From the NCBI GenBank assembly GCA_003142635.1, contig PLMX01000239.1, forward strand, positions 16,607 to 55,295: DNA of 38,689 bases. Reading direction: 5' to 3'. The stretch comes from Syntrophaceae bacterium. Lineage in GTDB: Bacteria > Desulfobacterota > Syntrophia > Syntrophales > UBA2185. A model generated the notes under the pieces. The model was not told the origin of the DNA. It searched no databases and saw nothing but the letters and a program-made list of their open reading frames with translations. Shown piece after piece: positions 1 through 3,877 of the stretch (position 1 is its first letter; every line of letters begins with the position of its first letter). A program made the translations under genes and the position numbers.

Positions 1-1808
1 CCCGCTGCAAACTCCCTCTCCAGGGATAAAATAGCCGCCACTTTCGGGGTTCTCAATGACCGCACCCGAAGCCCTGTACGCTGGCCTGAAACGACTGTTC
101 CTCCCGGAGGCGATTTCATAATCATCCGCTGATAGAGCGCTGTCAAGGCGCCTGTTTCAACGATCTCCTGGGTGGCCAGGTAGGCGGTACCCATCTGGAT
201 GGCGTCCGCGCCCAGCATGGCGGCTAAGAATGCCGTTTCCCGATTAAAGATTCCACCTGCAATGATTACACGACAGTTTCGGAAAAGGGATGGCGTGCGC
301 CGCTTGAGATCCAGAATCATTTGAGCAAGGGTGAGTGTGCTATGCTGACCCACGTGGCCGCCGGCTTCATATCCCTCGCAGACAACGTAACGGACGCCGG
401 CTTCGAGGGCGAGCCTCAACAGGGCCTCATCAGGAGCGATATACACGACCTCTATGCCGCATTCTATCAATTCTCTTAAAGGAGAGAGATCGCCACCTGC
501 AATAACGACAAAGCGGGGTCTCTGTTTCTTTATCCAGGCCAGATGCTTTTCCCTGAAAGGGTTTTCTGCCAAAGAGACGACATTTACTGCATAAGGGCGC
601 CCTCCCATGATCTCCGGCAGGCGTCCCAGCCTCCGGTCAAGGGCCGCCGCGTCCATCATGCCAAAGGCTATGGTGGGCAATCCACCGGCATCGGCAACTC
701 TTGCGGCAAACGCCGGCACATCTGTGATCCAGGACATGGCGCCCTGGATAAAGGGATATTTGGTTCCCATCTCTCCGGCCACAGGGCTGTCTAAAAAACA
801 ATCCCTTTTCGTCTCAGACAGGTGGCATAGGTTTCGAATCTCGCCCATAAAGGCCTTCACGGCCTCCTCGGTTCCGGCCCCAAAACGCTCAACGAACGAC
901 CGGGCAAAGGTGGTCTCCACAGCGAGAGGGATGATTTCGTCCTGGTTGAAATGGCTCTCCAGAGGGTGGATGGCCTTTGCATGCACCTGGCTTATGAAGG
1001 AGCGGCGGCTTTCTTCCGTGATCTCTGCTCCGTACAGGGAGTCCTCGAGCGTCTTGATCTCTTTGAACGCGCGCGAGTTTCCCTTGTTGAAAAGGCGACA
1101 AGGAACCTGCATGTCCAGGCCGACCAGATCGGTAGAGTCCAGGCGGAGATTGGAGATCCGTTGGCGTTGAACATCATCAATGGCAACCAGATCTGTCAGC
1201 CAATGGACGCTCTCAAAAACAATCCCGGTAGCCCCTGTGGACAGGAATGCCGCTGCCGCCTCAGGGGTAGAGACGCCTCCCCAAATGAGAATGTCGAGAG
1301 GCCTTGAGGATGCGCGCAGCATTTCCTTGGCCAACGAATATAGAGCCATGGTCGTCTCGCCGCTTACAAATCCAGAGGCTTCGCATCCCTTTAGGACGAT
1401 GCGCCTGATGCCCGAGCTCTCCTTCAGAATCGCTGTCAGGAGATCCATGTCACCGACGATTGGAAAGCAACGGTAGTCTTCCGACAATTGCCTCAAGTTC
1501 TGTAGAAAGATGGAAGGAGCTCCTTGAAAGAACTGGGGGAGGCATTCTACCCATATGTCGTGGACCCCCGTTTCTTTCAGTAGCCGCCCCAAGGATGGAT
1601 CAAAGAAGGCAGGGACAGAAATCTTTATATCCCTGATATGGCCGGCAGGGGCAGTCTTTCGTAAGAAAGAACATAACCCTTCCACCCCCATCATGGAAAA
1701 ATCGAAAATGGCTCTGCTCCCTGTACGCTGGGCCGTTTGAATCACCGATGGGGTGATCTCCTCAGGCCGCCAGACGAAACCGATGATAGAAACCCGATGC
1801 TCAGCCAC
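1..1808 (-). CDS. Tandem nitronate-monooxygenase-type protein, 3' end beyond window (possible PKS/PUFA-synthase subunit)
   Basis: An uninterrupted frame starts at GTG 1808 (Shine-Dalgarno aaggaagg just upstream) and runs off the left edge after 602 codons, so the protein is partial. Two TIM-barrel halves of the nitronate monooxygenase/PfaD type are visible. The first, about residues 1-230, contains VLKGCEASGF and ILIWGGVSTPEAAAAFL. The second, about 350-600, contains YPFIQGAMSWITDVPAFA, the flavin-site loop CEGYEAGGHVGQH, IIAGGIFNRETAFLAAMLGA and DAIQMGTAYLATQE. Single-barrel enzymes are about 320-480 aa, so this is a tandem or a larger fusion. Such double barrels are known as enoyl-reductase-like modules at the start of, or beside, polyketide and Pfa-type lipid synthases; that role is inferred here. 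It lies 45 nt downstream of the GNAT-like gene and is probably cotranscribed. A plain flavin oxidoreductase remains possible. Confidence 0.8.
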   Translation of the reverse strand, partial: MAEHRVSIIGFVWRPEEITPSVIQTAQRTGSRAIFDFSMMGVEGLCSFLRKTAPAGHIRDIKISVPAFFDPSLGRLLKETGVHDIWVECLPQFFQGAPSIFLQNLRQLSEDYRCFPIVGDMDLLTAILKESSGIRRIVLKGCEASGFVSGETTMALYSLAKEMLRASSRPLDILIWGGVSTPEAAAAFLSTGATGIVFESVHWLTDLVAIDDVQRQRISNLRLDSTDLVGLDMQVPCRLFNKGNSRAFKEIKTLEDSLYGAEITEESRRSFISQVHAKAIHPLESHFNQDEIIPLAVETTFARSFVERFGAGTEEAVKAFMGEIRNLCHLSETKRDCFLDSPVAGEMGTKYPFIQGAMSWITDVPAFAARVADAGGLPTIAFGMMDAAALDRRLGRLPEIMGGRPYAVNVVSLAENPFREKHLAWIKKQRPRFVVIAGGDLSPLRELIECGIEVVYIAPDEALLRLALEAGVRYVVCEGYEAGGHVGQHSTLTLAQMILDLKRRTPSLFRNCRVIIAGGIFNRETAFLAAMLGADAIQMGTAYLATQEIVETGALTALYQRMIMKSPPGGTVVSGQRTGLRVRSLRTPKVAAILSLEREFAA

Positions 1809-1853
1809 TATATCCAGCCCCTTCCTTTAAGGCGATACATTCAACTTTTGAAA

Positions 1854-2975
1854 CTATAAAGATTTTCTGAATATGCGATATTTCTTGTATCTTTTTGCGC
1901 CAGCTTCCTCTATCAATGAGTTGATCGACTCGTTGTCCTCCAGGGTCCAGCCCAACTCCAGATAATTATATTTCTCTTTTTTCCTCACAACCTCAAATAT
2001 GTGGTGGAAGGCTAACATGGGGAGTCCCAGTTGTTGGTACTTCTCCTTGATCCCGAAGATCAAACACCTCAATCCCTTGATCTCCCGCCGGTACATGAGG
2101 AACTTTAGCAAACCCGTCAGACCGATCCGCCCGTTGAAACGCTTGAGTAAAGGGTTGATGTCGGGAAAGATCACGCAGGCCGCTGCGGGTTCATTTTCAT
2201 AATAGATGAAGAAGACTAAGTCCGGATCCACGAATTTCATCACGTTCTTTTGAATGTCCCGCATCTCATTATCGCTGAGGGGGACAAAACCCCAGTTACC
2301 AGACCAAGAGGCATTGTATATCTCTCTGATCAGAGCAAACTCAGAGTCCGCATCCTCAGGATGAGAGGGCCTGATGCGGACACCTTTTTTATTGGAGATG
2401 CGTTCAGCAAGACGATCCATCCACTCGGGAAGCCGGTAATCGCCAGCTATCAGGAAGGCCATCAGGTCCTTCTCTTTTGTGAAACCGCACCGTTCGACCA
2501 GCCCTGGGTAGTACGGTGGGTTGTAAGTCATCATCAAGACCGGCGCATGCGCGAATCCCTCAATGAGCAATCCCACCTCATAATTGGTGGACGGGTTGAG
2601 TGGGCCTCTCATGAAGGACATACCTTTCTCACGAGCCCACGTCTCTACGGAAGCGAAGAGCGCCGCGGCAGCCTCCCGATCGTCAGCACATTCGAAAAAT
2701 CCCCAAACCCCCATCTTCTCGCCGTGGAACTCGTTATAATGACGATCTATGATGCCCGCGATCCTTCCCACCGTCTCCGAACCACGTCGGGCCAGAAAGA
2801 GGATGCGCTCGGAAAACTCCCAGAAAGGATGCCCACCGGGGTCCAGCATCCGGCGAACCTCCTCCTTGAGGGGGGGAACCCAGTTGGGGTACTCAGCATA
2901 GATCCTCCATGGCAGGTCAATGAAGTCCTTTAATTCTGATCCGCCTTCCACATCAAGAATCTCTATGCCGGCCAT
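1854..2975 (-). CDS. GNAT-fold N-acetyltransferase-like protein (YghO-like)
   Basis: This 373-aa soluble protein has no signal peptide. It matches my recollection of the YghO-like/GNAT-fold family: an N-terminal segment with WVPPLKEE and HPFWEFSE, then GRIAGIIDRHYNEFHGEKMG and the conserved MRGPLNPSTNYEVGLLIEGF, a PPYYP motif, and a C-terminal acyltransferase-like half ending in YNYLELGWTLEDNESINSLI. The substrate is unknown. The start ATG 2975 has only a weak purine-rich stretch upstream. The gene is followed after 45 nt by the tandem nitronate-monooxygenase-type gene on the same strand, which suggests a two-gene or longer operon and possibly a role in modifying an acyl or polyketide product. 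The family call is firm; any pathway role is inference. Confidence 0.75.
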   Translation of the reverse strand: MAGIEILDVEGGSELKDFIDLPWRIYAEYPNWVPPLKEEVRRMLDPGGHPFWEFSERILFLARRGSETVGRIAGIIDRHYNEFHGEKMGVWGFFECADDREAAAALFASVETWAREKGMSFMRGPLNPSTNYEVGLLIEGFAHAPVLMMTYNPPYYPGLVERCGFTKEKDLMAFLIAGDYRLPEWMDRLAERISNKKGVRIRPSHPEDADSEFALIREIYNASWSGNWGFVPLSDNEMRDIQKNVMKFVDPDLVFFIYYENEPAAACVIFPDINPLLKRFNGRIGLTGLLKFLMYRREIKGLRCLIFGIKEKYQQLGLPMLAFHHIFEVVRKKEKYNYLELGWTLEDNESINSLIEEAGAKRYKKYRIFRKSL

Positions 2976-3304: not shown

Positions 3305-3877
3305 TTACGTTTCCACTTGTTTTCGTATTTTTTCAACGTCTGCATGCTTCACGTAACCAACAACTCCAAACCATATCCATATCCGATGGAATCCATATCC
3401 CCCGTTCACCATCTCCTGAATTGCGTCTTCTTTCGTCCATCCTTGCTCTACCATTCTAATCATCGCGATCATAACACCCGCTCTATCTGAACCATGCGAA
3501 CAGTGTATTAAGAAAGGACCATTTTCCCTTTTGCGGATTATTTGTAGGACTCTGACTACGTCTGCATCTTCAATATTCCATACTTTTACGCTCAATTCTT
3601 CAACGCGCAATCCTGTTTCCTTGATCTCATCAGAATCAGAATAGAACGCCCGCAGGTTTATGATGGTCTTTATCCCCATCCTCTCAATGTTCTTCATTCC
3701 TTCCTGAGTTGGCTGCGAGCTTCTATAAAGATAATCGGTTACCTTATAAAGATTAGGAACTCCCTCCAATTGGACGGGCGTTGCCCATTGTACCGGCCGA
3801 CTGGATTCTACTCCATTTGGAGAACAACCCCAGACGGAGGATACAATAATTAATAGCAAGAAAATTGCTTTTATCAT
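3305..3877 (-). CDS. Dual-specificity/tyrosine phosphatase-like lipoprotein (copy 1)
   Basis: 190 aa with a lipoprotein signal (VSSVWGC, acylated Cys about residue 18), so probably membrane-anchored outside the cytoplasm. The core has the cysteine-phosphatase features YRSSQPTQEGM, GIKTIINLR, the WNIEDAD general-acid loop (Asp104/106 region) and the P-loop HCSHGSDRAGV with nucleophile Cys126 and Arg132. The residue after Arg is Ala133, where active family members normally have Ser or Thr; this could weaken turnover. A paralogue with the canonical Thr sits at 16348-16908 on the same strand, sharing stretches such as ENGPFLIHC and EMVNGGYGFH. A good promoter lies about 50 bp upstream. The gene is monocistronic. 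The substrate is unknown; it could be phosphoprotein, phosphoinositide or polyphosphate ester. Confidence 0.85.
   Translation of the reverse strand: MIKAIFLLLIIVSSVWGCSPNGVESSRPVQWATPVQLEGVPNLYKVTDYLYRSSQPTQEGMKNIERMGIKTIINLRAFYSDSDEIKETGLRVEELSVKVWNIEDADVVRVLQIIRKRENGPFLIHCSHGSDRAGVMIAMIRMVEQGWTKEDAIQEMVNGGYGFHRIWIWFGVVGYVKHADVEKIRKQVET

Follow-up and report, generated by a model that had tools for sequence, protein, structure and literature searches.

Why does a gene for an acyltransferase-like protein stand directly upstream of a second gene that runs off the edge of a bacterial sequence? We analysed a 38,689-nucleotide stretch of a Syntrophaceae bacterium genome (GenBank assembly GCA_003142635.1, contig PLMX01000239.1, which is contig C21 of our source genome G000, positions 16607-55295), hereafter the window, in which the second gene encodes two barrel domains and is open at the left end. 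We think it probable, with some reserve, that the truncated gene encodes part of a dedicated iterative type I fatty-acid/polyketide synthase, which would supply a long acyl chain bound to its acyl carrier protein (ACP), and that the neighbouring bacterial ceramide synthase (bCerS) would use this chain to N-acylate a sphingoid base.

The bCerS gene adjoins the synthase in distantly related bacteria

The pairing was followed in named genomes, where neighbourhood counts cover 61 (loci L112-L172) of the best 80 out of 478 confirmed relatives. When these were split at 75% identity of the second barrel into a close group (31 loci) and a distant group (30 loci), bCerS lay no more than 2 kb upstream of the synthase in all 28 close loci whose upstream sequence extends for 1.2 kb or more. 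The record titles of the close group bear eight phylum names (Deltaproteobacteria/Thermodesulfobacteriota, Nitrospirota, Verrucomicrobiota, Lentisphaerota, Planctomycetota, Acidobacteriota, Aminicenantes and Gammaproteobacteria), and the bacteria that share the pairing are mostly anaerobes and only distant relatives of one another. Since the two-barrel stretch keeps 67-85% identity under these eight names, the distribution resembles horizontal spread, with the proviso that several of the non-Desulfobacterota names belong to metagenome-assembled genomes, where misbinning is possible.

Within the phylum of the source genome, 20 of 395 genomes had a match to the tandem barrels (E <= 1e-35), 15 of them of the full type (E <= 1e-180) and five distant. 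bCerS was present in 14 of the 15 full-type synthase genomes versus 110 of the 395 overall (Fisher p 1e-7, kinship ignored), and a bCerS of at least 49% identity was found in 12 genomes, 11 with the synthase and the twelfth (G433) with the gene at a contig end. At the level of the order, 14 of 149 genomes encode a bCerS, of the close type in four (G000, G001, G063 and G112); it adjoins the synthase in three of these, and in G001 the two sit at the ends of two contigs. Because the phylum threshold used for serine palmitoyltransferase (SPT; 1e-65, 251 of 395 genomes) fails to separate SPT from Kbl and BioF, no SPT association is claimed.

The named-locus and G-handle sets overlap, the same contigs (by their lengths) appearing as L112 and G437 C41, L116 and G502 C143, L125 and G334 C243, L139 and L096, L144 and L098, L145 and L101, L147 and L100, L158 and L107, and L171 and L106; L116 and L167 come from one genome.

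The window edge interrupts a type I synthase gene

A 2-N assembly gap lies directly before window position 1, so that the edge is an assembly artefact and not a gene end. The first-pass annotation, made from the window letters alone, had suggested that the gene might continue into a ketosynthase (KS) beyond the edge and that the contig be extended leftward in search of KS, acyltransferase (AT), ACP, ketoreductase (KR) and dehydratase (DH) domains. All were found there, together with a phosphopantetheinyl transferase (PPTase) gene, rather than a stop near position 1 with no synthase genes following, and a gene ending at the edge was rejected. In the same-genus genome G001 barrel 1, the linker and KS lie in one continuous frame. 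A second 2-N gap interrupts the KS/AT junction of the window's synthase gene. The main features are as follows, ER standing for enoyl reductase and FMN for flavin mononucleotide.

3..1808, minus strand: N-terminal part of the type I synthase, 602 residues, tandem TIM barrels ER'-ER; open at the window edge and continuing past it into KS and AT-ACP-KR-DH
804..1808, minus strand: barrel 1, residues 1-335, ER-like but divergent; invariant residues of its own, no catalytic His
1368..1370, minus strand: codon of F147 in barrel 1, which aligns with the catalytic His of barrel 2
3..803, minus strand: barrel 2, residues 336-602, predicted FabK-type FMN enoyl reductase
354..356, minus strand: codon of H485, the putative catalytic His in EAGGHVG
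1854..2975, minus strand: predicted bCerS/YghO family N-acyltransferase, 373 residues, folded as a tandem GNAT; the synthase gene follows after 45 bases
L002 15126-16604, left of the window, same direction as the two-barrel frame: KS
L002 11050-15168, left of the window, same direction: AT, ACP, KR and DH
L002 10286-11032, left of the window, same direction: ACPS-type PPTase

Full-length relatives are single open reading frames of 2505-2714 residues with the order ER'-ER-KS-AT-ACP-KR-DH in 48 of the 49 loci examined for long frames, the exception being L058 (G063), which is split into 1061 and 1509 residues; in six pairs of these frames one contig carries two ids, so that at most 42 are distinct. 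The KS Cys and two His are kept in 48 of 48 full-length frames, and all 49 rows show the AT GHS, the ACP Ser of DLxIRSSRLP, the KR Tyr, the DH His and a Glu as the DH acid. By regular expression the AT motif is AFHS in 46 of 48 and YASH in none, which we take, from motif rules, to mean malonyl specificity. Where ordinary ACPs carry Asp, these have Arg (48 of 49) or Lys, and this may explain the dedicated PPTase. Counted by motif, one ACP is present in 42 of 48 frames, two in five and three in one; the source genome has one. Pfam detected no thioesterase domain in one 2657-residue relative, and in the same protein neither a KS-chain length factor (CLF) pair nor a paired FabA-like DH, finding one KS and one PS-DH. 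L186 was omitted from alignment A2 (frame stop).

The first-pass annotation had remarked that modules with such barrels occur in Pfa-type and polyketide synthases (PKS) of anaerobes. The multidomain synthase was borne out, with KS, AT, ACP, KR and DH in one polypeptide with the barrels in relatives, and the Pfa-type label was not. Two full-length relatives scored 451 and 472 bits with the PfaA model TIGR02813, whose cutoff is 1010, and the PfaD model TIGR02814 gave 28.9 bits on the two-barrel frame (cutoff 449); with a FabK-type ER, no KS-CLF detected and mostly one ACP instead of 4-6, a Pfa-type synthase was rejected. A related proposal is that a secondary lipid or polyketide synthase of that type makes a free or phospholipid-bound fatty acid and stands beside bCerS by chance. 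The KS, malonyl-AT, ACP, KR, DH and ER logic and the adjacent PPTase are indeed shared with Pfa-type systems, and 16 of the 25 distant synthases with enough flank have no bCerS nearby, but the parts that define Pfa systems are absent, and chance linkage does not square with a pairing kept in all 28 loci, which bear eight phylum names, and with a matching bCerS branch. We consider it very improbable.

A second, distant type I PKS family with N-terminal barrels was also seen (L108-L111 and L173-L182; 27-31% identity, open frames of 2466-3734 residues); none of the ten distant-type PKS loci L173-L182 had bCerS nearby.

One barrel is FabK-like and the other lacks the catalytic His

The two barrels had been described at first pass as related, the second with a complete-looking flavin loop and the first apparently divergent, and this description held. 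They are homologous by BLASTP (E 3e-05) and by profile-profile comparison (E 1e-07 across 163 columns), the latter aligning EASGFVS of barrel 1 opposite the EAGGHVG loop of barrel 2, and the AlphaFold2 model of the 602 residues consists of two TIM barrels (pLDDT 90.5, pTM 0.92). H485 is His in 36 of 36 tandem relatives, whereas the matching position of barrel 1 is Phe, Leu, Trp or Val and His in 0 of 36.

Pfam NMO matches the frame in two stretches (94.5 bits), and the best NCBIfam model is FabK TIGR03151, at 141 bits against a cutoff of 453. The barrel 2 model matches FabK structures with Z 29, in a structure-match list that covers almost solely this barrel. A nitronate monooxygenase as such was rejected, as the FabK model outscores it and FabK structures match barrel 2, which we assign as a FabK-type FMN TIM-barrel enoyl reductase with a putative catalytic His.

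In all 36 relatives barrel 1 keeps K140, G141, E143, G146 and H202. Having these fixed residues and no catalytic His, it is therefore conserved for something besides FabK chemistry. The thraustochytrid ERb and ERc form a heterodimer in which ERb requires ERc for folding (PMC13311796). Because TIM-barrel ERs act as dimers, and in view of this heterodimer, we infer that barrel 1 is a built-in structural partner, probably an ER pseudo-enzyme that pairs with barrel 2. FabK and ERb/ERc are likewise FMN TIM-barrel ERs with a conserved catalytic His, and ERb/ERc, as presented in PMC13311796, are two non-identical barrels that pair; unlike them (both with the His and both binding FMN in that account), the barrels of the window form a single tandem fusion, and barrel 1 is without the His.

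The upstream protein belongs to the bCerS/YghO family

The protein called GNAT-like at first pass has a predicted tandem GNAT fold (Z 23.5 to 7q3a and 23.1 to 5kga), with N-myristoyltransferases lower in the structure list (Z about 15). Neither Pfam nor NCBIfam gave a family match for its 373 residues. A tblastn search against plasmids returned 44 records, among these Escherichia coli YghO, with about 32% identity over 99%. In E. coli PN43, yghO adjoins genes for an SPT-type alpha-oxoamine synthase (AOS), an ACP, an epimerase and a fatty acyl-AMP ligase; a Roseomonas homologue stands beside LptF/LptG, CDP-alcohol transferase and lipid kinase genes, and a Rubrobacter homologue beside an AOS-type gene and an oxidoreductase. 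For the Caulobacter pathway, the N-acyltransferase CC_1154 is the proposed ceramide synthase (PMC11324152). By comparison with YghO, the upstream protein is a predicted N-acyltransferase of the bCerS/YghO family. The earlier suggestion of a tailoring enzyme undersells this protein, which accompanies the synthase as its conserved partner and points to sphingolipid synthesis.

A bCerS tree of 73 rows, 70 of them different, placed 46 synthase-linked rows and nine others in a single branch with 100/100 support. For five of the nine the synthase lies elsewhere in the genome (G519 twice, G449, G248 and G466), and one is at a contig end (G433). The synthase-linked label requires four changes on the tree versus a mean of 22 in shuffles, with none of 500 shuffles as low, a contrast that near-copies inflate. 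The bCerS of SPT operons fall outside this branch, including the second copies in L137, L120 and G437, those of L137 and L120 having received this label before the tree was built.

Sphingolipid genes and the fate of the acyl chain

The source genome has exactly one bCerS match (E <= 1e-15) and carries CerR, SPT and PAP2 genes together on contig C130, separate from the synthase contig. Its SPT scored 549 bits with the NCBIfam SPT model, under the cutoff of 640, and against the Protein Data Bank a solved SPT gave 435 bits and the next non-SPT 314; a second AOS (contig C71) was set aside as probably BioF-like. As the sole bCerS of a genome with SPT and CerR, the protein of the window is the best candidate there for ceramide synthesis. 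In G063, from another family, FabF, DUF4833, SPT (88%), CerR (83%), bCerS (82%) and synthase genes are contiguous.

In the mechanism that we favour, the AT, with its AFHS motif, would load malonyl units, the single KS would condense them, and KR, DH and the FabK-type barrel 2 would fully reduce the product to a presumably saturated long chain, on an ACP activated by the adjacent PPTase. bCerS would take the finished chain directly from the ACP, no thioesterase domain having been detected in the relative searched. The sphingoid base would be made by the SPT encoded on the other contig, reduced by CerR and N-acylated by bCerS, with ceramide as the likely product, which an ABC-2 exporter would move and an EptA-like transferase decorate, both being encoded downstream. 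The architecture, the families, the linkage and the conservation of catalytic residues can all be read from the sequences.

The synthase could instead feed SPT and so build the sphingoid base, on the pattern of PfSgaA and PfSgaB in Pseudomonas fluorescens MYb115, with bCerS adding an ordinary fatty acid. PKS-derived sphinganines are demonstrated for PfSgaAB (PMC12134224); six of the 31 close loci have SPT in reach of the synthase, and in G063 the two are contiguous. The constant neighbour, however, is bCerS (28 of 28) and not SPT, the SPT of the source genome is on a different contig, and in L121 and L130 a separate fatty acyl-AMP ligase accompanies SPT besides the synthase cluster. Since the fixed partner is bCerS and these two loci carry SPT plus an acyl-AMP ligase of their own, the chain more plausibly goes to the amide nitrogen, and we hold the sphingoid-base route to be unlikely.

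The acceptor might also differ: the synthase and a bCerS paralogue may make another N-acylated lipid, such as one built on an amino acid or an aminosugar. This would suit the separation of the synthase-linked branch from the SPT-operon bCerS, the presence of both kinds in G437, L137 and L120, and the dimethylargininase-like, glycosyltransferase-like and radical SAM genes kept nearby in some loci. Nevertheless, the bCerS of the window is the only one in its genome despite the SPT and CerR there, and in G063 CerR and SPT are contiguous with bCerS, so that such a product seems improbable to us.

Several points weigh against a synthase that makes chains for the amide nitrogen of ceramides. SPT and CerR are not on the synthase contig in the source genome, and within the fetched flanks of the close group SPT was found in only six and CerR in only ten of 31 loci. 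In the distant group, only nine of the 25 loci with 2.5 kb or more of flank on a side had bCerS near the synthase. G394 encodes the synthase but no bCerS, and G309, G396 and G222 encode a bCerS of the synthase-linked branch but gave no synthase match. The single frame of the window's own gene, across two 2-N gaps, is extrapolated from relatives. Another amine could be the acceptor in the synthase-linked clade, and both the ceramide product and the enzyme roles of the cluster are predicted from sequence.

Two related observations may be added. In L192 (G396), L193 (G309) and L197 (G222) bCerS lies next to a CerR-like gene, perhaps with another acyl source; and CerR was present in four of the 30 distant-group loci.

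Neighbouring genes

Directly upstream of bCerS in the window is a gene whose membership in the cluster is uncertain, and which adjoins bCerS in G001 and L113 as well:

3305..3877, minus strand: predicted dual-specificity/tyrosine phosphatase-like protein

Farther left of the window lie genes for an ABC ATPase, an ABC-2 permease, an EptA-like phosphoethanolamine-transferase-type protein, radical SAM proteins and others. DUF4833 genes occur both in the synthase cluster (L002:1846-2487) and beside SPT in G063 (L058:1660-2205), suggesting a possible sphingolipid-linked protein. L002:4130-5119 encodes a glycosyltransferase-like protein with no Pfam family and weak NCBIfam GT matches, which is kept in several synthase clusters. 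At the far end of the cluster is a dimethylargininase/amidinotransferase-like gene (L002:822-1796, plus strand), also present in L118:1-966 and L204:3280-4350, the latter two beside CerR-like and PAP2 genes. In ten close loci, L112 (9053-9898) among them, the gene between bCerS and synthase encodes a conserved protein of 277-311 residues with no Pfam or NCBIfam family, whose HSW and NNC stretches may resemble permuted NlpC/P60-LRAT enzymes.

Relation to known systems and biological meaning

The acyl chains of sphingolipids are assumed to be products of the ordinary fatty acid pathway. SPT by itself often serves to predict that bacteria make sphingolipids, as PMC12134224 notes. The SPT, CerR and bCerS families of the canonical ceramide pathway (Caulobacter CC_1162, CC_1164 and CC_1154, as outlined in PMC11324152) are all in the source genome, and the order CerR-SPT-bCerS was found in four phylum genomes that we fetched (L194, L195, L196 and L198). 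Unlike in that SPT-linked arrangement, the bCerS of the window is split off, has a branch of its own and keeps a constant place next to a type I synthase.

PfSgaAB(C) is likewise an iterative type I PKS linked to sphingolipid genes; as summarised in PMC12134224, that PKS pairs with an SPT (SgaB) and a eukaryote-like 3-ketodihydrosphingosine (KDS) reductase, and the cluster description there names no ceramide synthase. The cluster of the window differs in its constant bCerS, its CerR and SPT in some loci, its PPTase and its tandem FabK-type barrels, SgaA being compared by its description. The Pfa or polyunsaturated fatty acid (PUFA) secondary lipid synthases, types A-T (PMC3098273), are also multidomain iterative fatty acid or polyketide synthases with an ER, a neighbouring PPTase and horizontal spread. 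Unlike them, the synthase studied here has a FabK-type ER, two fused N-terminal barrels, no KS-CLF detected, mostly one ACP and a PS-DH-type DH.

In the open-access literature that we searched, most subscription papers being outside its scope, no ER'-ER-KS-AT-ACP-KR-DH system fixed to bCerS was found, and bacterial ceramide synthase, polyketide synthase and sphingolipid were joined only in PMC12134224. As PKS-derived sphingolipids are already published there (PfSgaAB), the kind is known and the bCerS-fixed system is a variant of it, in which a dedicated megasynthase is constantly accompanied by a ceramide-synthase branch of its own, across loci with eight phylum names.

In the Black Sea, 1-deoxyceramide classes are reported whose acyl chains have 32-34 and as many as 39 carbons, to those authors' knowledge without precedent in a living organism, and Desulfobacterota and/or Bacteroidota are named as possible producers of some of the classes (PMC11334938). 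Linking the cluster of the window to these 32-39-carbon chains is a conjecture. A more specific version, in which a horizontally spread cluster with a one-protein synthase makes N-acyl chains of more than 31 carbons and passes them from ACP to a specialised ceramide synthase in anaerobes, is tentative and, in our judgement, rather doubtful. If it were true, it would account for the acyl chains of the Black Sea 1-deoxyceramides, the enzyme that makes them not being named in the sections of PMC11334938 used here. If the synthase does supply bCerS, the origin of unexplained very long chains in euxinic waters would become a question for gene deletion or reconstitution, and the sphingolipid N-acyl chains of many uncultured anaerobes would come from a separate machine.

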